Assembly (NCBI GenBank): GCA_021325275.1
Contig: JAJPHL010000034.1
Coordinates: 1-64,000, forward strand
DNA: 64,000 nt
Source of the DNA: Terriglobia bacterium
GTDB taxonomy: Bacteria > Acidobacteriota > Terriglobia > JAJPHL01
Direction of reading: 5' to 3'
The notes beneath the pieces were generated by a model. The model had not been told where the DNA came from. It made no database searches and saw only the letters and a list, made by a program, of their open reading frames with translations. Made by a program: the position numbers and the translations under genes. Position 1 is the stretch's first letter, and each line of letters opens with the position of its first letter. Of this stretch, positions 4,391 through 58,574 are shown piece after piece.

Positions 4391-7300
4391 ATGAATCTGA
4401 AGGCGTTCTCGCTTCTGTTAGCCGTGGCGTTTCTAGCAAACCTCGGCGCAGCACCCTCGCTGTACGGTCAAGGCAGCGTTTCCGGCGGCTCCGTAGTGGG
4501 AGCGGTCACGGATTCCTCGGGCGCGGCAGTTCCAAATGCCGAAGTCACATTAACCGACGTCGGCACCAAGGTCGCCCGAACCACGAAGAGCAACGGAGCG
4601 GGGCTGTATGCCTTCCGCGAGGTGCCGGTTGGCACCTACAACCTCAAGGTTTCGACGTCTGGGTTTCGCACTCTCGAGATCGCCCGTGTAGAAGTCACCG
4701 TCGGTGGCACGCTTACCTTGAACGCCAAGCTAGAGGTGGGCGCTATTTCTGAAGTGGTGGAAGTGAAGGCCCAGCCCGGCGCGGAACTGCAGACCCTGGA
4801 CGCCACGATGGGCGCGACGATCGGCGGCAAGGACATGTTGAACCTGCCCACCATCGCCCGCGACGCTTCCTCGTTGATTTACCTCCAGGCCACAGCCGCG
4901 CCTACGTTCAACGGGGCCCTCAGCAACATCTACAGCGGCCAAGTGGCCGGCGCCTTTTCCGACCAGAATTCGGTCCAACTCGATGGCGGAAACAACAGTT
5001 CCACACTGGACGGCGACAACGCTACGTACGTGGGACTGCGCGGCGGCGCCATGCAAATGCCGGTGGAGAGCGTCGAAGAGTTTCGAGTAAACACCAACAA
5101 CATGACCGCCGATTTTGGCAGTTCCGGCGGCGCCCAGGTGATCGTCAGTACCAAGCGCGGGACGAATCAGTTTCACGGATCCGGTTACGATTTCTTCCAG
5201 GCCAATTGGCTGAATTCCAACGACTGGTCCAACAATTTTAACGGCATCGCCAAGCCCAAGCAGCATTACAACCGCTTCGGCGGCGCGCTCGGCGGACCGA
5301 TGCTTCCTGCGATGCTGGGAGGCAAGACGTATTTCTACATGAACTTCGAGGGTGAGCGCTACCCGCGCAGCGGGCCGTTGACCAAAACCGTGCCCTCCGA
5401 CGCGCTACGCGCGGGCATCATTACGATTCGCGACGCCAGCGGAACTCCCATCCAGTACAACCTGAAAACCGCCATGGTCTGCGGAGCGGCGGGCAACTCG
5501 CCTTGCGATCCCCGCCTGGCAGGCATGAGCCCGGTGGTCAGCAAAATCTGGAGCTACGAACCGGAACCGAACCTTTTCACATCCGGCGACCGCCTCAATA
5601 CCTTCGGGTACCAGTCCAATTTGTCGTACCCGTTGACCAACAACTTCGGCGTGGTCCGTATCGATCACGACTTCGGAGACAAGAACCGTTTCTTCGCCAG
5701 CTATCGGATTTTCTCGCAAGACAATCCCACCACCAACCAGGTCGATATTGGAGGCGTGCTGCCCGGCGACACCAAAGGCCAGCCGGCCCCGGCGTCGATC
5801 ACCGTCGACCAACCGCGTTACGTGGTGCTCGGCTTGAACACTTCGGTCACTCCTTCCATCACCAATGATTTGCACTTCAATTATCTGCGCGACCAGTGGC
5901 AGTGGCTGCGCGCGGGGGCCAATCCGTATATCCCAGGCGTGCCGGCGGGCGTCACCATTGGCGGCGACTCCAGCGGCGCCTTGGTTCCCCTGAACATCGA
6001 CACTCAAAACTCACGTCCCCGCTTGTGGAATTCGCATAACTTCGATTTCCGCGATGGCGTGAGTTGGCTCAAGGGGAATCATTTAATCCAGGTGGGCGGC
6101 GATTTCCTGCACCAATGGTTCCACTTTGATCGCTACGACAACGTGACCGGAGGACTGACGCAGGACAAGTACCTCATCCAGAGCTCCGGCATCTCATTCT
6201 CGTCCGCTTTTCAGCCGGTGGTTTGCACGACGGCCCTGACGCACAACTGCATCCCGTCGTCGCAACTCGGTACTTACAACGGCTTCTACGCGGACATCCT
6301 GGGAATGGTGGCTCAGAACAACATCGTCGCCACGCGCACCGGCTCGAACCTGACCTTGAATCCTCTCGGCTCACCGGTCGCGTCGTACAGCCACGTGGAG
6401 AACTACAGCGTCTATTTCAACGACGCTTGGAAAATCAGCCCGCATGTCACGATCAACTACGGTCTGAACTACAACATTCAGATGCCGCCCTACGAGTTGA
6501 ACGGCGCTCAAGACACCCTGGTGGACCAGAACGGCGTGCCGATCACCACCGCTCAGTTCTTGCAGGCGCGCCAGTCCGCGGCTCTGCTGGGACAGAATTA
6601 CAATCCCACGCTGGGATTCTCGCCAGTCGGCGCGGTCGGTCTGAAATATCCGTACGCTACGGACTATCGTCAACTCGCGCCACGCGTTTCTGTCGCTTGG
6701 AATCCCTCGTCGAGCGGCGATAGCTGGTTCAGCAAATTGCTAGGTAACAATGCCACGGTGATCCGTGCGGGTTACGGCCGTTTCTATACTAAGAGCTTGG
6801 GAATCGATCTGGTTTCCGATCCGGTTTTGGGCGATGGCTTCTTGCAAACTGTTTCCTGCGCGGATCCGACTTCGGCGGGCGCCTGCACCAAGTCCAGCGG
6901 CACGACGCCGGCCTCGGCCTTCCGTCTGGGAGTGGATGGGAACACCGTACCGCTGCCGGCCATTCCGCAGACACTGGCCACGCCCGTCCGGCCCGGCGTG
7001 AATGCCGCCTACGAGACCTTTGCATCGTATCTGGATAGCGGCTGGAAACCGGGCTCCTCGGACCAAATTACATTCAGCATCCAACGCCAACTGAAGGGCA
7101 ACACGATCCTCGAGGTTGGATACGTCGGAGTCTTCGCCCGGAACCTGTTTCAGGGCATCGATCTGAACGATGTGCCCTACATGATGACGCTCGGCGGCCA
7201 GAGTTTCCAAGCTGCCTACGCTGCCGTCTCCAAACAGCTCCTACCCACATCGCAGGGTGGGGCTGGCGTCGTTCTGGGTTCCAAAACGGTGCTGCCGGCG

Positions 7301-51527: not shown

Positions 51528-51612
51528 CCAAGAAATCGCCAAAACGACTACTGTAACCTGATGCAAACAAAGGGTCGCTACAAATTTCCATTTATTGGGA
51601 TATAAGGAAGAC

Positions 51613-52470
51613 GTGCAAGAACGGGCTTTGATAGCGAGAATCCGCAAGCTGGCGGGACAGCACGGCGGGCGGCTGCGAGTGTCAATCGGCGACGATTGCG
51701 CCGTCTGGAAACCAGACCCAGGACTAGAAACGGTCATCACGACCGACCAGCTTGTTGAGGGCGTGCACTATCTCTCGGGATCACCTGGGCGCGCCTTGGG
51801 CGCAAGGCTTGTCGGACGCGGACTCTCCGACATTGCGGCGATGGGCGGCGATCCTCGCCTGGCATTCCTCAACGTCGCTTGGCCCGCGACTCTGCCCGAA
51901 CGTTGGTGTCTCGATTTTCTACACGGATTCGCGACAGAAGCGCGGCGCTGGAAGACAGCATGGGCGGGTGGCGACGTTTCGAGCGTCGCCGGACCGTCGG
52001 TCGCGTCGATTACGATGATCGGCGAAACGCCAAAGGGTGGGGCGCTCTTGCGATCGGGCGCGCGCGCCGGTGACCTTATATATGTCAGCGGAAAATTGGG
52101 CGCGCGGCCTCGCAAGATTACGCCAAGGCTGGCACTCGGCAAAGCGCTTCGCGGCGTCGCAACGGCGTGCATGGATCTCAGCGACGGCCTGTCCACGGAT
52201 CTACATCATTTGTGCGATGAAAGCGGCGTCGGCGCGGTGATCGAAGCGAAACGCATCCCCGCCGCGGGGAAATCGTTGCATCACGCGTTGAATTGGGGCG
52301 AGGATTACGAACTGCTGTTCACCGCGCGCGTATCCACGCGCGTGGAGGCGAGAATCGCGAGTGTGCCGATCACCTGCATTGGCCGCTGCACCCGGCGTGG
52401 TGTGCTGATCGAAGATGCCGCGGGGCATCGTGCTCCGATGGAGCCGCGTGGCTGGGAGCATTTCAGTTAG
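51613..52470 (+). CDS. thiL: Thiamine-monophosphate kinase
   Basis: 285 residues; phosphorylates thiamine monophosphate to the pyrophosphate with ATP. Motifs: IGDDCAVWKP (Mg/ATP site), TTDQLVEGVHY, GLSDIAAMGGDPRLAFL, WAGGDVSS and MDLSDGLSTDLHHLC. A GTG start is preceded by AAGGAAG, a better fit than the in-frame TTG at 51595. A little shorter than the usual 310-330 residues. Divergent from the M23 gene and convergent with the BNR propeller gene. Confidence 0.95.
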   Translation: MQERALIARIRKLAGQHGGRLRVSIGDDCAVWKPDPGLETVITTDQLVEGVHYLSGSPGRALGARLVGRGLSDIAAMGGDPRLAFLNVAWPATLPERWCLDFLHGFATEARRWKTAWAGGDVSSVAGPSVASITMIGETPKGGALLRSGARAGDLIYVSGKLGARPRKITPRLALGKALRGVATACMDLSDGLSTDLHHLCDESGVGAVIEAKRIPAAGKSLHHALNWGEDYELLFTARVSTRVEARIASVPITCIGRCTRRGVLIEDAAGHRAPMEPRGWEHFS

Positions 52471-52473
52471 CGG

Positions 52474-53586
52474 CTACACCACCGCAACCTTCACGTTGTG
52501 AATCGGCGGCAGCGAATCGAACAAACAATCCCAATGTTCACCGCCGTCGCGTCCGATCCATAACTGACCGGTCGTCGTGCCGAAATAAAGCGCCGGCGAC
52601 TTCAACTCGTCAATCGTCATGGCGTCGCGCTGAACGGTGAAGAAGCTTTGCTTCTTCGGCAATCCGCGCGCCAGCCGGTTCCACGACGCGCCGCCGTTTT
52701 CGCTACGCCACACCGCCGGCGCGTTGTCCGGACAGGTGCGCGTCTCCCCCGCGAGCGGCAGCACGTAAACCGTGTCGGCGTCATCGGGATGCACGACGAT
52801 CGGAAATCCGAAATCCGACGGCAATCCTTTGGCGATCGATCGCCAAGTGCGTCCGTAGTCGTCGCTGCGAAGCACGCCGATGTCGGGGCGCGGTCCGCCC
52901 GGGCCGGTCCAATTGGCCCATCCGCCGTGATTCTGCATGTACAAGCGGCCCGGCGCGTCGTCGTGCCGCACAATCTTGTGGACACATTGTCCGAACTCCG
53001 GGTACGGATCGGGATTGAAGCCCGCGCCGACGCCTTGGTTCGACGCCGTGAACGTCTCGCCGCCGTCTTCGCTGAGATAGTGCCCGCCCGTTGAAATTCC
53101 CAGGTGCACGCGATTCCCGTCGCGAATGATCGTGTGCATGCACAAGCCGCCCGCGCCCGGCTGCCACTTACGCGCGTGCTCGTGATTGCTGATGCCGGGG
53201 ACCATTTCCCACGAATCGCCGCCGTCACGGCTGCGGAACAACGACGCCGGCTCCACGCCGGCCCACAAATCCTTTTTGCCAGCGCCCACTTCCAGCGACC
53301 AAATGTTGGCGAGCGCGCGTCCGTCGTCTTTGGGGAACGCCGGCGCGGATTTCGTCTCCTTGAAGCTCTTCCCTAGGTTGGTGGAGCGCAGCACTTTCAT
53401 CCCGAAGAACGGATTGCAACACGAGGCATAGATAGTCGGCGTCCCACGCGTGTCGACGAGCGTGGAGTACACCGGAACACCGGTGCCGTACGGCCCGCGC
53501 AGCGCGAAACTCCGCCGCGGCTTTCCGGATTCCGCAACGAACACGCCTTTCCTAGTGCCAATCGTGAGAATCACTCGTTCCGCCAT
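52474..53586 (-). CDS. BNR/sialidase-like beta-propeller protein
   Basis: 370 residues without signal peptide. Asp-box (BNR) turns: STNLGKSF, SRDGGDSWEMV, SEDGGETFTA, SDDYGRTWRSI, SENGGASWNRL, GRDGGEHWD. It begins MAERVILTIGTRKGVFVAE. Annotated homologs are called exo-alpha-sialidase or WD40/YVTN/BNR-like, but no catalytic Tyr/Glu pair or FRIP motif of true sialidases is visible. GGAGG 8 nt upstream of the ATG. Directly after the MoaD-like gene (4-nt gap), a pairing I recognise from other genomes (knowledge, not checked here). Confidence 0.85.
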   Translation of the reverse strand: MAERVILTIGTRKGVFVAESGKPRRSFALRGPYGTGVPVYSTLVDTRGTPTIYASCCNPFFGMKVLRSTNLGKSFKETKSAPAFPKDDGRALANIWSLEVGAGKKDLWAGVEPASLFRSRDGGDSWEMVPGISNHEHARKWQPGAGGLCMHTIIRDGNRVHLGISTGGHYLSEDGGETFTASNQGVGAGFNPDPYPEFGQCVHKIVRHDDAPGRLYMQNHGGWANWTGPGGPRPDIGVLRSDDYGRTWRSIAKGLPSDFGFPIVVHPDDADTVYVLPLAGETRTCPDNAPAVWRSENGGASWNRLARGLPKKQSFFTVQRDAMTIDELKSPALYFGTTTGQLWIGRDGGEHWDCLFDSLPPIHNVKVAVV

Positions 53587-53590
53587 TTTT

Positions 53591-53878
53591 TCAGCCTCCC
53601 GAAACCGCCGGCAGGATCGTGACTACGTCCCCCGGCGCCAGTGTGGTGTCGATTCCGTTCAGATCTCGCATATTGTCCGCGTTTACGAAAACATTCAAGT
53701 GCTTTCGCAGCGCGCCTGTTTCATCGCAGACATTGCAATACAACGCGGCTTGATTCCGCTCCAACTCCTCCAGCACGCCGCGCACGGTTTGCGCTGAAAT
53801 CGGCAGTTGCGACGCGCCTGCACAGTATGGACGCAATGGAGCCGGTACGTGAAGTCGAATATTTGACTCGGGCCCCAT
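53591..53878 (-). CDS. MoaD/ThiS-family ubiquitin-like protein
   Basis: 95 residues of beta-grasp type: IRLHVPAPLRPYC first strand, VRGVLEELERN helix, FVNADNMRDLNGIDTTLAPG, and the C-terminal LPAVSGG ending in the Gly-Gly that is adenylated and thiocarboxylated in sulfur carriers. Upstream in a likely two-gene operon with the BNR propeller. thiL is nearby but on the opposite strand, and molybdopterin or thiazole synthesis genes are absent, so the sulfur recipient is unknown. Confidence 0.85.
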   Translation of the reverse strand: MGPESNIRLHVPAPLRPYCAGASQLPISAQTVRGVLEELERNQAALYCNVCDETGALRKHLNVFVNADNMRDLNGIDTTLAPGDVVTILPAVSGG

Positions 53879-53947: not shown

Positions 53948-56900
53948 TTATCTCAATACGAGAGTGACCGTGTTGCTGGCGGCGCCCCCCACATTCACAA
54001 CCAACGGCGCCGGGCCGGCCGCTAGGCCGCTGGGAATCTGTACGTTTACTTGATACAACCCCACAAAGGTGGGAGCAAGTCCCGCAAACTGCACCTGCGC
54101 AGGTTGGCCGCCCACCGTCGCCGTCACCGGCGCGACGACCATCGCCAATGGCGGCGAGGCCGGCGCACCCGCGGCTGTCGCGACCGCTGGATTCGTCGCG
54201 CCCAAGCCCGTTGCGAAAACCTCGACGACGTCTCCTGCGGCGGCCGGCGCTGATGCATTCACCAGCACGTTCTGCACATTCAGGATCGCGCCCTGTCCAG
54301 TGCCCTGCTGATTAATGGTGAAGATTCCCGGCGCTGCCGGCGCTACCACGATCGTCTCCGGCACGGTCAGCGCTCCGCCCTGGCTGACGACCGCTTGCGG
54401 CCGGTTGTTCACGGGCAGTTCGTAGGGAATCTGCGCGTTGATCTGCGCGGCGCTGGAATAAAACAGGGGCGCATTGATCCCGCCTACGGTGATTGCGGCG
54501 CCGCTCAACGTAAACGGCAACGGTACCGTGCTCGCGCTGCCCGAGGAGTTGGCCATATTGCCGCCGAACACAGATACAATGCCCCCCGGCGACAGCGGCG
54601 CTGCCGGCGCAAAGCTGGCCGCGTTAACCAAGCCTCCGGGAAACACCACCGGCACACCGGCGTTCCCACCCACTTGTCCCTGAACCGTCACGACCGCGGG
54701 GGCGAGCGGCGGCGATGTGACTCGCGCCGTCACAGTAACCGCCGATGAAGTGTTCCCAGGACGCCACGTAGCCGTGTAGACACCGTTTTGCAAGCTGGCC
54801 AGCGCCAGTGGCGCATCCCCATTCGAAAAGCTCGCTACCACCGTCGCGTTGGTGACCGGGTTCCCGCAGTCGTCGGCCACTTGCAGTTCAATGCTCGTGG
54901 GCCATGCGATCGGCGACAGGAAGTTACTTCCCAAGCTGCGAAACAATCCCAGCAATTGCGTTGGCGAGCACGACGATCCTGCACCATCCACCGAGACCGA
55001 GTTCGTTCCCGGCCCCGATCCCGTGACCAGAAACAGAAGATTCACTACTTGGAGCGGGCTATTGTCGCCGAAAACAAACGTGAGCGCGCCGCGATAGACG
55101 CCTGGAGCCAGCGTTCCCAACGATGGCTGGACTACGATCGTGCGGCTTGGATTGCCGGGCGTGAGTTGCGCATTCAGCGGCAAGGCCTGCGCCCAATTGC
55201 CGCCCGCCGTCACCAACCCAGCGGAATATGTCGTCGTCGCCGGCCCAACCAAGGATACTTGCACGGTCTGTGATCCTGGATCGGAGGTCCCAGCTCGCGC
55301 GGTGAAGATGAGTCCGGCCGGCTGCACGATCACTCCGGGATCGCTGCCCGCCGGCAACACGTTCAACTCCACGGTGACCACTTGCGGCGAGTTGTTCGCG
55401 CCCGGCGCGCTGACCTGAATCAGCGCGCTATATTTGCCCGCCGCCAAGCCGCCGAGGTTCGCGCCAACCGCGAAAGAAGAAACTTGCTGCGATCCCGCCA
55501 CGCTGTTTCCGCTGCTTGGCGTAATCGTCAGCCAACTGCTGCTGAAGAACGTGTTGGAAGGGGCCGTGGAAATCGCGCTCCAGTTCATGGTTCCTTGCCC
55601 GGTATTCAACACGCCGATGGTCTGCGGCTGCAGCGGAGCGCCGCCCGCCACTCCGATGAATTGCAATCCGCTCTGGCTCAGCAGAATCGTTTGCGTTGGC
55701 GGCTGCACAACCAGCGTGACCGGAACCGTAATGCTGTTGCCGTTCGAATCGGTCACCACCACCGAACCGGAATAGACTCCCGTTGCCAGGCCCGTAAGAC
55801 TCGCGGTGACTTGCACGGCGACGGCGGCGCTCCCGCCGGAAGACGCGGAGAGGCTCAGCCACGATCCTCCGCTGGCCGTCGTGGTTCGCGCGGTCCAGCT
55901 TGCGCCGGAGATCTGCAACGATTGCAGCGCGGGACTCGCCCCTCCCGCGACACCTTGAAAACTCAGCGCGGCCGGCGCGACCACCAGATGCGGCGCTACG
56001 CACGGGGGAAGCGCCACCAGCACATTCACCGTCTGCGTCGAAGGAACCGCGCCCGGCGCTTGCACGGTGATGGTTCCGCCGGAAGGCGCCACCGTCCCGG
56101 TTGCCGATCCGATGGTCACCGCGATAATGGCGGGCGTGGTTCCCGAAGTGGATGAGATGGAGAGGGACGATCCCGTCACGCTGGCCTGCCACGCGATACC
56201 GGGCACCGAACTGCTGATCACGAGTTGCTGCGTGGCGGTGGCGGAGGGATCGCACGGCGCGGTGAAGCCGAGCGACGCCGGCGTAACACTGAATGCCGGC
56301 GCGGTCGCCAGGACCACGCGGACGCGGTCGGTCATCGGGTCCGCGATGTATAGATTGCCTGCGGCGTCGACGGCAACGGCCGCAGGGTTCTTGAGCACGG
56401 CGCTCGTAGCGGGCCCGCCGTCACCGAGCGCTTGCCCCTGCGTCGATCCCGCATATGTGCTGATCGTTCCACCGGGGCTCACCTTGCGGATGCGTCCGAT
56501 GCCGCCGCCTTGATCCGTGACGTAGAGATTCCCTGCCGCGTCCAATGCTACTCCGTGCGGATTGGTGACCGATGCGCTGGTGGCTGGTCCGCCGTCTCCC
56601 ACTCCCGGTGAAAAGCCAGGTGTGCCGTTTCCAGCGACGGTGGTGATCGTCCCTGCGGTGCTGATCTTGCGGACCCGGTGGTTGAGCGTGTCGGCGACGT
56701 AGACGTTACCCGCGGCATCGACGGCCAGATTGGCGTTACCACCCAGGCCCATGTTCAAGGCCGCGGCGGTCGCAGCTCCGCCGTCGCCGGAGAATCCTGC
56801 CGTGCCGTTCCCCGCAATGGTGGTGATAATTCCGCCGCTGACTTTTCTGATTCGCGCGTTTCCAGTATCGGCGATATACAAATTACCCGACGCATCGAAA

Positions 56901-58480
56901 GCCACGCCGTTCGGGCTGTTTAGCAATGCACTCGTGGCCGGGCCGCCATCCCCGGAAAAACCGAAGTTGGTGGCACTGCCCGCCACCGTGACGATCAGCC
57001 CGTTCGAGCCAATCTTCACGACACGACTACTGCACTGCAGGCCGAAATACGCGCTGCCCGCGGCATCGAACGCTAATTGTGTGACGTACCCGATATTGGC
57101 GCTGGTCGCTGCGACGCCATCGGCGGAACAAGAATCTCCCAGGACGCCGCTGCCGGCGAAGGTAGAAATGATCTCCGTCGCCCCGATGCCGTTAGGGCCA
57201 GCCGTGGAATTGAGCGTCCGTGTCACCTTGCGGATGCGATGAAAGAAGCCGCCCGTATCGGAGATGTACAGGTTGCCCGACGGATCGACGCTCACGCCTT
57301 GGGGCTGGTCCATGCTCGCGCTGGTGGCGGGTCCGCCGTCGCCTGCGAATTTGAAGTCGCAGGTGCCGGCGACCGTGCTGAGCATTCCGCTGGCGTTCAT
57401 CTTGCGCACGCGGCAATTATCTGTGTCGGCGATGTATAGATTTCCCGCGGAATCCACCACCGATGCCGACGGCAGACTCAAGCTTCCGTTGACGGCCTGC
57501 CCGCCGTCGCCGGTGAAGCCGCTGAAGTTTCCGCCGGCGATGGTGTTGATCGTGCCCGCCGGCGTGACCTTACGGATTCCGCCGCCCGTAGCGATGTACA
57601 GATTTCCCACGGAATCCACGTTGATGCCGGAGGGTGAGAACACAGGCGCGCTCAACGCCGAACCGCCGTCGCCCGAGTAATTTCCCACGCCGCTTCCCGC
57701 CACCGTGGTGATGGTCCCGCCGCTCACCTTGCGGATCCGGTTGTTCAGGGTGTCGGCGATGTACACGTTACCCGCCGCATCCACGGCCACCGCAAGGGGA
57801 CCATTGAGCATGGCACTGGTTGCAAGCCCGCCGTCACCAGAGAAACCGGCTTGGCCGTTTCCCGCAACCGTGGTGATGGTTCCACCGGGAGTCACTTGGC
57901 GGATGCGGTTGTTGCTGCGATCGGCAATGTACAGGTTGCCGCTTGAGTCCACGGCCACGCCGGTCGGTTGGTTGAGCGATGCGCTGGTGGCGGCACCGCC
58001 GTCACCGGAGAATCCTTGTGTGCCATTGCCGGCGTATGTGGAGATGATCCCGCTCGGCGTCAGCCGGCGAACCCGGCCGTTGGTGAGATCCGAGATATAC
58101 AAGTTCCCCGCGTTATCGAAGGCGATGCCCCAGGGAGATCCCATCGCCGCGTTGGTTGCCAGTCCGCCCTCTCCCGAAAAACCCAGGAATCCGTTGCCCG
58201 CCAGAACGGTCAGCGTGCCGTTCGACGAAACGCGGAAGACAATATTGTTGTTGCCATCGGCTGCGACGACGTTGCCGGAAGGGTCCAGAGCGACGGAGAG
58301 GATTTGGCCCGTTGGCGCATTGATGGCGGGCTGGCCGTTGCCGTTGAAGATCCAGCTGCTTCCGGCCGTGGTAGAGATGATCTGGCCGTGAACGGGAAGG
58401 ATTGTTAAAAGTGCGGCGAGCAGGCCTAGCGTGCAAACTGACTTCCCCAAAGAAACGGGAGGCAGAGACACTACTCTCAT
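53948..58480 (-). CDS. NHL-repeat protein with Ig/BACON-like region and TIGR03437 C-terminus
   Basis: About 1510 residues, secreted (signal peptide ends at PVHGQ). Twelve NHL-like units with the pattern GVAVDxxGNLYIADxxNxRIR / ITTVAGNGxxGFSGDGG form two propellers' worth of blades (about 35-720). A serine/threonine-rich region with Ig- or BACON-like repeats follows (SFQGVAGGASPALQSLQI; LQFIGVAGGAPLQPQTI). The last about 250 residues (LVNAASFAPAAPLSPGGIVS; VFATGLGATNP; APTFVGLYQVNVQIPSGL) are the TIGR03437 domain first described in Solibacter. Probably a cell-surface or matrix protein. Start at 58480 (MRVVSLPPV); the ORF extends 14 codons further without a ribosome binding site. Confidence 0.9.
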   Translation of the reverse strand: MRVVSLPPVSLGKSVCTLGLLAALLTILPVHGQIISTTAGSSWIFNGNGQPAINAPTGQILSVALDPSGNVVAADGNNNIVFRVSSNGTLTVLAGNGFLGFSGEGGLATNAAMGSPWGIAFDNAGNLYISDLTNGRVRRLTPSGIISTYAGNGTQGFSGDGGAATSASLNQPTGVAVDSSGNLYIADRSNNRIRQVTPGGTITTVAGNGQAGFSGDGGLATSAMLNGPLAVAVDAAGNVYIADTLNNRIRKVSGGTITTVAGSGVGNYSGDGGSALSAPVFSPSGINVDSVGNLYIATGGGIRKVTPAGTINTIAGGNFSGFTGDGGQAVNGSLSLPSASVVDSAGNLYIADTDNCRVRKMNASGMLSTVAGTCDFKFAGDGGPATSASMDQPQGVSVDPSGNLYISDTGGFFHRIRKVTRTLNSTAGPNGIGATEIISTFAGSGVLGDSCSADGVAATSANIGYVTQLAFDAAGSAYFGLQCSSRVVKIGSNGLIVTVAGSATNFGFSGDGGPATSALLNSPNGVAFDASGNLYIADTGNARIRKVSGGIITTIAGNGTAGFSGDGGAATAAALNMGLGGNANLAVDAAGNVYVADTLNHRVRKISTAGTITTVAGNGTPGFSPGVGDGGPATSASVTNPHGVALDAAGNLYVTDQGGGIGRIRKVSPGGTISTYAGSTQGQALGDGGPATSAVLKNPAAVAVDAAGNLYIADPMTDRVRVVLATAPAFSVTPASLGFTAPCDPSATATQQLVISSSVPGIAWQASVTGSSLSISSTSGTTPAIIAVTIGSATGTVAPSGGTITVQAPGAVPSTQTVNVLVALPPCVAPHLVVAPAALSFQGVAGGASPALQSLQISGASWTARTTTASGGSWLSLSASSGGSAAVAVQVTASLTGLATGVYSGSVVVTDSNGNSITVPVTLVVQPPTQTILLSQSGLQFIGVAGGAPLQPQTIGVLNTGQGTMNWSAISTAPSNTFFSSSWLTITPSSGNSVAGSQQVSSFAVGANLGGLAAGKYSALIQVSAPGANNSPQVVTVELNVLPAGSDPGVIVQPAGLIFTARAGTSDPGSQTVQVSLVGPATTTYSAGLVTAGGNWAQALPLNAQLTPGNPSRTIVVQPSLGTLAPGVYRGALTFVFGDNSPLQVVNLLFLVTGSGPGTNSVSVDGAGSSCSPTQLLGLFRSLGSNFLSPIAWPTSIELQVADDCGNPVTNATVVASFSNGDAPLALASLQNGVYTATWRPGNTSSAVTVTARVTSPPLAPAVVTVQGQVGGNAGVPVVFPGGLVNAASFAPAAPLSPGGIVSVFGGNMANSSGSASTVPLPFTLSGAAITVGGINAPLFYSSAAQINAQIPYELPVNNRPQAVVSQGGALTVPETIVVAPAAPGIFTINQQGTGQGAILNVQNVLVNASAPAAAGDVVEVFATGLGATNPAVATAAGAPASPPLAMVVAPVTATVGGQPAQVQFAGLAPTFVGLYQVNVQIPSGLAAGPAPLVVNVGGAASNTVTLVLR

Positions 58481-58574
58481 TCCCGGTATGCTACCACGAA
58501 CGTCGTTGTTGATCCCATCCATGGGCGCCGCGGTAACGTCTCAGTTTTAATTCTTGATCCCGCGGAGCCGGATA
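58481..58574. other. Spacer before the REP/RAYT remnant
   Basis: No gene or strong site; contains the start region of the NHL-protein gene on the minus strand, with a weak TAGCAT about 7 nt before its ATG. Non-repetitive up to the left repeat arm. Confidence 0.4.

Follow-up and report, generated by a model that had tools for sequence, protein, structure and literature searches.

The 64,000-nt stretch of Terriglobia DNA analysed here (hereafter, the window) carries two adjacent genes on the reverse strand (Table 1), the first encoding a small protein of the ThiS/MoaD family of sulfur carriers and the second a propeller protein. The stop codon of the carrier gene is separated from the ATG of the propeller gene by only 4 nt, and the junction reads GGA GGC TGA AAAA ATG. 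The open reading frames and the Pfam match bear out the original prediction of a beta-grasp protein ending in Gly-Gly just ahead of a propeller. As had also been predicted, molybdopterin and thiazole genes are absent from the vicinity, with the refinement that the convergent neighbour, located 3 nt from the propeller stop codon, is thiL (51595..52470; TIGR01379, 225 bits). A comparison of neighbours in related loci revealed that thiL is not a recurring companion of such pairs, and a thiamine link through this gene was therefore rejected. Just upstream of the pair, a 1524-aa NHL-repeat protein with a BACON-like region is encoded on the same strand at positions 53948-58522 of the window.

Table 1. 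Coordinates of the carrier-propeller pair and its sequence features in the window.
Feature	Position	Strand	Remarks
ThiS/MoaD-family sulfur-carrier-like gene	53591..53878	(-)	95 aa, C-terminus Ser-Gly-Gly (...ILPAVSGG*); ORF and Pfam ThiS
Gly-Gly codons of the carrier (GGA GGC)	53594..53599	(-)	sequence
Shine-Dalgarno GGAGG of the propeller gene, inside the carrier Gly-Gly codons	53595-53599	(-)	sequence
Cytosolic seven-bladed Asp-box (BNR) propeller gene	52474..53586	(-)	370 aa, YP_299179.1/3b7f family

Sequence features of the carrier and the propeller

The carrier matches the Pfam ThiS family (PF02597) with an E-value of 3.6e-12 and a score of 47.1 bits, above the cut-off of 22.5, and its best PDB match is CysO of M. 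tuberculosis (3dwg, 5.4e-14). The scores against curated models were below their cut-offs, being 18 bits versus 66.15 for the MoaD equivalog TIGR01682, 52.3 bits versus 60 for the SAMP1 equivalog NF041918, which is the best NCBIfam match, and 42 bits for an archaeal MoaD model. The nearest characterised carrier is thus CysO, rather than MoaD as suggested by the label "MoaD-like" initially given to this protein.

The propeller carries a BNR/Sortilin-Vps10 match in Pfam, and its best PDB match is 3b7f (E-value 4.7e-58, residues 5-366). Five strict Asp boxes and one degenerate box (GRDGGEHW) were found, while 0.009 strict boxes would be expected in shuffled sequences; this agrees with the six boxes originally counted, although the fold of the family is nonetheless seven-bladed. 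The 3b7f family corresponds to the seven-bladed "YP_299179.1 family", called functionally uncharacterised in the 2009 survey of Asp-box proteins, which treats the propeller (YP_299179.1, Reut_B4987, 3b7f) alone and does not mention MoaD; its tunnel measures 9 by 11 Å, and the top face is the likely functional face, the bottom face being marked by the Asp boxes (PMC2716378). The AlphaFold model of a homologue (L070) was most similar to 3b7f (Z 51.1, 353 residues, 1.7 Å), followed by GH74 (Z 28), with YCF48 bound to the D1 peptide and sortilin as further fold neighbours; a family missing from these lists was not counted as excluded.

Neither a hydrophobic leader nor a signal peptide was found in the window propeller, which is therefore taken to be intracellular, as it had appeared at first reading. 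In most loci with an upstream carrier, only 4-11 nt separate the end of the carrier from the propeller match, a gap too short for a leader. The near-invariant positions in 114 propeller sequences include T11, K13, W96, H151, S165, H203, Q218, H220, R240, and R320. As judged from strand order and the Asp-box rule for the bottom face rather than from coordinates, most polar residues among them would be located at the starts of the innermost strands or in the loops between strands 2 and 3, that is, on the top face around the tunnel. The near-invariant residues of pocket type (K13, W96, H151, H203, Q218, H220, and R320) are also present in propellers without a linked carrier. Lys/Arg/Ala-rich C-terminal tails of 30-40 residues were found in the propellers of three loci with a downstream carrier (L062, L070, and L074; about 7077-7225). 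Such tails resemble those of nucleic-acid-binding proteins, and the window propeller has none.

Conservation and co-divergence of the pair

Relatives were taken from the organism's own class, from a species-level genome collection (80 loci), and from plasmid records (six loci), and carriers beside propellers were detected by iterated profile searches. A same-strand ThiS gene adjoins the propeller in 91 of the 112 assessable loci, being located downstream in 56 and upstream in 35 cases; for the untruncated loci of the species collection, the proportion is 63 of 74. Judged by record titles, linked loci occur in 11 phyla; some of these records are metagenome bins that could be mis-sorted, but the pair is also carried by replicons sequenced to completion from Cupriavidus, Burkholderia, Pseudomonas aeruginosa, and Mitsuaria. 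The pair of Cupriavidus metallidurans CH34 is that of locus L117. Of 199 sampled genomes from the organism's own phylum, 68 contain the propeller, and in many of them a carrier is adjacent, in either order, according to a comparison of coordinates by eye. The pairing is thus not confined to this genome, an outcome that had been set beforehand as refuting the original prediction.

All 32 loci of the clade comprising the window propeller are linked, always with the carrier first, and this clade spans Acidobacteriota, Planctomycetota, Verrucomicrobiota, Rhodothermota, and Bacteroidota. The carrier-first order requires two origins on the propeller tree, the order shifting while the linkage persists. 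Among the thousands of genes in a genome, one to three encode such carriers, so that well under one adjacent locus would be expected by chance. A chance neighbour was ruled out by the overall frequency of linkage, its spread over phyla, the uniformly linked clade, and the co-divergence of the two proteins.

The distance matrices of propellers and carriers are correlated with r = 0.857 (0.915 within Acidobacteriota), while the best of 2000 shuffles gave 0.115. Two pairs of loci from different phyla, L080/L081 and L082/L107, are nearest to each other in both proteins, showing that the pair moves between phyla as a unit. On the carrier tree (n = 112), a single branch with an SH-aLRT support of 92 splits 92 propeller-flanking carriers, including that of the window, from 20 others adjoining cysteine synthase (CysM), threonine synthase (ThrC), E1 domain, or other genes. 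This tree, built on an alignment of only 91 columns and with a small non-propeller set, makes a good but not final case for a separate carrier lineage private to propellers.

Loss of the Gly-Gly in homologues had been set beforehand as a possible refutation of the predicted pairing, and the motif is retained in all 91 propeller-linked carriers, forming the exact C-terminus in 72 of them; the reading frame continues beyond it in the other 19. In the window and in most upstream-linked loci, the Gly-Gly codons (GGA GGN) also supply the propeller gene with its ribosome-binding site, GGAGG, and in L054-L057 the carrier frame extends six residues past the Gly-Gly into the propeller start, with GGAGG retained. 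Selection on the carrier protein is still needed, since a ribosome-binding site does not explain the Gly-Gly of the downstream carriers. In L074 (7183-8733) and L088 (7089-8393), the carrier frame continues past the Gly-Gly into a DNA base-excision gene, identified as a methyladenine glycosylase by Pfam and presumably MutY-like according to our own reading. These seeming fusions look like read-on into the downstream gene and were left out of the evidence; this arrangement may be due to chance, as may the presence of UDG and NAD-ligase genes among the scanned neighbours.

Clustering of 846 genes, together with a Pfam scan covering 55 neighbours, revealed no third gene conserved beyond a few loci, and a phage origin was rejected, no phage match being found. 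Three Acidobacteriota belonging to one family have a YciI-like gene after the propeller gene, and the carrier gene is next in two of the three; the order in L123 (2606-5316) and L124 is propeller, YciI-like protein, carrier, and DUF427 protein. A YciI gene is also located near the P. aeruginosa pair (L118, 3699-5095), which, by gene order, is probably PA1355-PA1356. PA1356 (PA14_46750) begins in the manner typical of these propellers and appears in a list of Tat candidates (PMC6085387), in contrast to the cytosolic look of the family.

The partnership is not obligate, since 21 of the 112 propellers, found in Streptomyces, several Nocardioidaceae, and others, and including one paralogue in the genome under study, have no adjoining carrier. 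The genomes of 11 unlinked loci contain carriers beside ThrC-like, CysM, or E1 genes, or without an informative neighbour, and no such carrier included in the tree groups with the propeller type; therefore, a propeller can exist without a private carrier. Unlinked propellers perhaps use a general carrier or have a different role. The own-genome paralogue (C31; L116, 4731-6231) is followed by a gene for a 125-aa protein that contains a Cys/His-rich stretch and matches no Pfam family. In Actinobacteria (L127, L130-L136), a carrier ending in AGG, which we take to be ThiS-like, is located beside a presumably threonine-synthase-like PLP gene, both names coming from our own reading of the sequences; in many cases a cold-shock gene and groEL are located close by.

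Charging machinery and structural modelling

In the same genome, genes for a cysteine synthase and a JAB peptidase are clustered at C55 (L114, 4432-7481) with that for a ThiS-ThiF-rhodanese fusion. This arrangement corresponds to the CysO-type system already described (Iyer 2006, row 4c; PMC1779556), and a second PALP-ThiS pair is present at C16. The C55 machinery could charge the carrier of the propeller. E1 is near universal across the genomes with the pair and hence uninformative as a test, and JAB, with a score over the cut-off in 23 of the 26 genomes searched for it, is too frequent to be of diagnostic value; it is equally common in genomes whose carriers run past the Gly-Gly and in the others.

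The L070 carrier alone was modelled by AlphaFold with a pLDDT of 93, the last three residues being near 55. A fused model, in which the L070 propeller with its Lys/Arg-rich tail is read through into the carrier (503 residues; 79 alignment rows, six of them paired), had a pLDDT of 91 and a pTM of 0.87, with a disordered linker. By our estimate, a freely floating carrier in such a fusion would give a pTM of about 0.73, and the difference weakly hints that the carrier may dock on the propeller. The terminal Ser-Gly-Gly is disordered in the fused model, with a mean pLDDT of 46 against 55 for the carrier alone, so that the model predicts no insertion of the Gly-Gly tail into the propeller tunnel.

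Possible function of the pair

A functional partnership between the carrier and the propeller is strongly supported. Accordingly, the part of the original prediction concerning a partnership stands firmly, while the proposed chemistry, sulfur transfer or conjugation, is plausible from the protein family, the Gly-Gly, and the presence of E1 and JAB. In the MoaD-MoaE, ThiS-ThiG, and CysO-CysM systems, the gene beside the carrier encodes a client, an activator, or a processing enzyme. We favour, with a probability of about 0.45, a dedicated sulfur carrier whose client, the propeller, takes thiocarboxylate sulfur for a pocket-bound substrate. An E1-rhodanese enzyme, with its gene elsewhere in the genome, would adenylate the C-terminal Gly-Gly of the carrier and convert it to a thiocarboxylate; the charged carrier would then dock on the propeller, its dedicated cytosolic client, which would pass sulfur from the thiocarboxylate to a small molecule bound in the conserved pocket of the top face. 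This reading is favoured by the linkage across phyla in both gene orders, the invariant Gly-Gly, the separate carrier lineage, the co-divergence of the two proteins, the lack of a third conserved neighbour, the missing secretion signal of the propeller, the charging machinery of the genome, and the pTM of the fused model. The unlinked propellers, the occurrence of pocket residues in them, the disordered tail of the fused model, and the carriers with frames running past the Gly-Gly count against the client reading.

The CysO-CysM-Mec+ system (M. tuberculosis Rv1335/Rv1336/Rv1334; Iyer 2006, rows 4c/4d, PMC1779556) comprises a carrier of the same subfamily with a Gly-Gly, whose gene is likewise located beside that of a client. 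However, this client is a PLP cysteine synthase instead of an Asp-box propeller, and the propeller-linked carriers form a separate group. Neither a cysteine synthase nor a JAB gene is found near the window pair or is conserved beside other pairs, and, unlike CysO clusters, the carrier-propeller cluster contains no JAB or E1. MoaD-MoaE and ThiS-ThiG also combine a beta-grasp carrier ending in Gly-Gly with a dedicated partner, but no MoaE or ThiG homologue is encoded beside the window carrier. YCF48/HCF136 and sortilin Vps10 are peptide-binding Asp-box propellers without glycosidase activity as well, although they belong to other subfamilies, have no carrier partner, and show weak sequence similarity to the window propeller. 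By analogy, the pair may work like known carrier-client pairs, while being a member of none of those tested.

Alternatively, the carrier could be attached to proteins as SAMPs and TtuB are, with the propeller acting as a target-recognition adaptor or the main target and JAB removing the carrier. The closest curated models, those of the archaeal ubiquitin-like modifier SAMP1 (52 bits) and of archaeal MoaD, point in this direction despite scores under the cut-off, as do the presence of JAB and E1 in the genome, the frequent use of propellers as adaptors, and the Lys/Arg-rich tails of the three homologues, which could serve as acceptors. Such ubiquitin-like conjugation nevertheless seems somewhat unlikely, since no E2-like, E3-like, or third conserved gene is found near the pairs, JAB is too widespread to be informative, and a Lys-rich tail is missing from the window propeller. 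We consider it unlikely that a non-catalytic propeller merely sequesters or protects the charged carrier in a regulatory or storage complex, as Asp-box propellers hold peptide C-termini: peptide binding by fold neighbours (YCF48 with the D1 peptide, sortilin with neurotensin) and the suggestive docking in the fused model would fit, but the Gly-Gly tail is disordered in that model, and the near-invariant His, Arg, Lys, and Gln residues suggest an active or ligand site, not a mere cage.

If the small protein had lost its sulfur chemistry and now served the propeller only as a structural subunit, part of the Gly-Gly could have been kept as ribosome-binding-site codons, which would agree with the Shine-Dalgarno position in most upstream-linked loci and with the retention of GGAGG in L054-L057; the equal invariance of the Gly-Gly in the 56 downstream carriers, free of that constraint, makes this quite improbable. 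Database records name the propeller "exo-alpha-sialidase", and GH74 is its next fold neighbour, but it is highly improbable that the protein is a common glycoside hydrolase or sialidase placed beside a carrier gene by accident, in view of the absent signal peptide, the lack of the FRIP motif of GH33 sialidases in a pattern search, and the carrier linkage across 11 phyla. Moreover, a single 370-aa propeller of the seven-bladed 3b7f family corresponds neither to the six blades of GH33 nor to the two tandem seven-bladed propellers of GH74. The database labels "exo-alpha-sialidase" and "glycosyl hydrolase" are probably wrong.

No description of the carrier-propeller pair was found in the searchable literature, which included few subscription journals. 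A crystal structure of the propeller family has been available since 2007, with no function assigned, and the link to an apparently private, phylogenetically distinct carrier in 11 phyla makes this propeller a directly testable pathway, the culturable genera with the pair including Cupriavidus, Burkholderia, Pseudomonas, Kribbella, and Lentzea. The odds slightly favour the 3b7f-family Asp-box propellers being a new class of sulfur-carrier clients, or else bacterial partners in ubiquitin-like conjugation, and thus part of a widespread, undescribed two-protein pathway for a thio-product or protein tagging. To our knowledge, no propeller is present among the client folds of described sulfur-carrier systems, and, if the proposed role is true, the propeller would add a new client fold to them.
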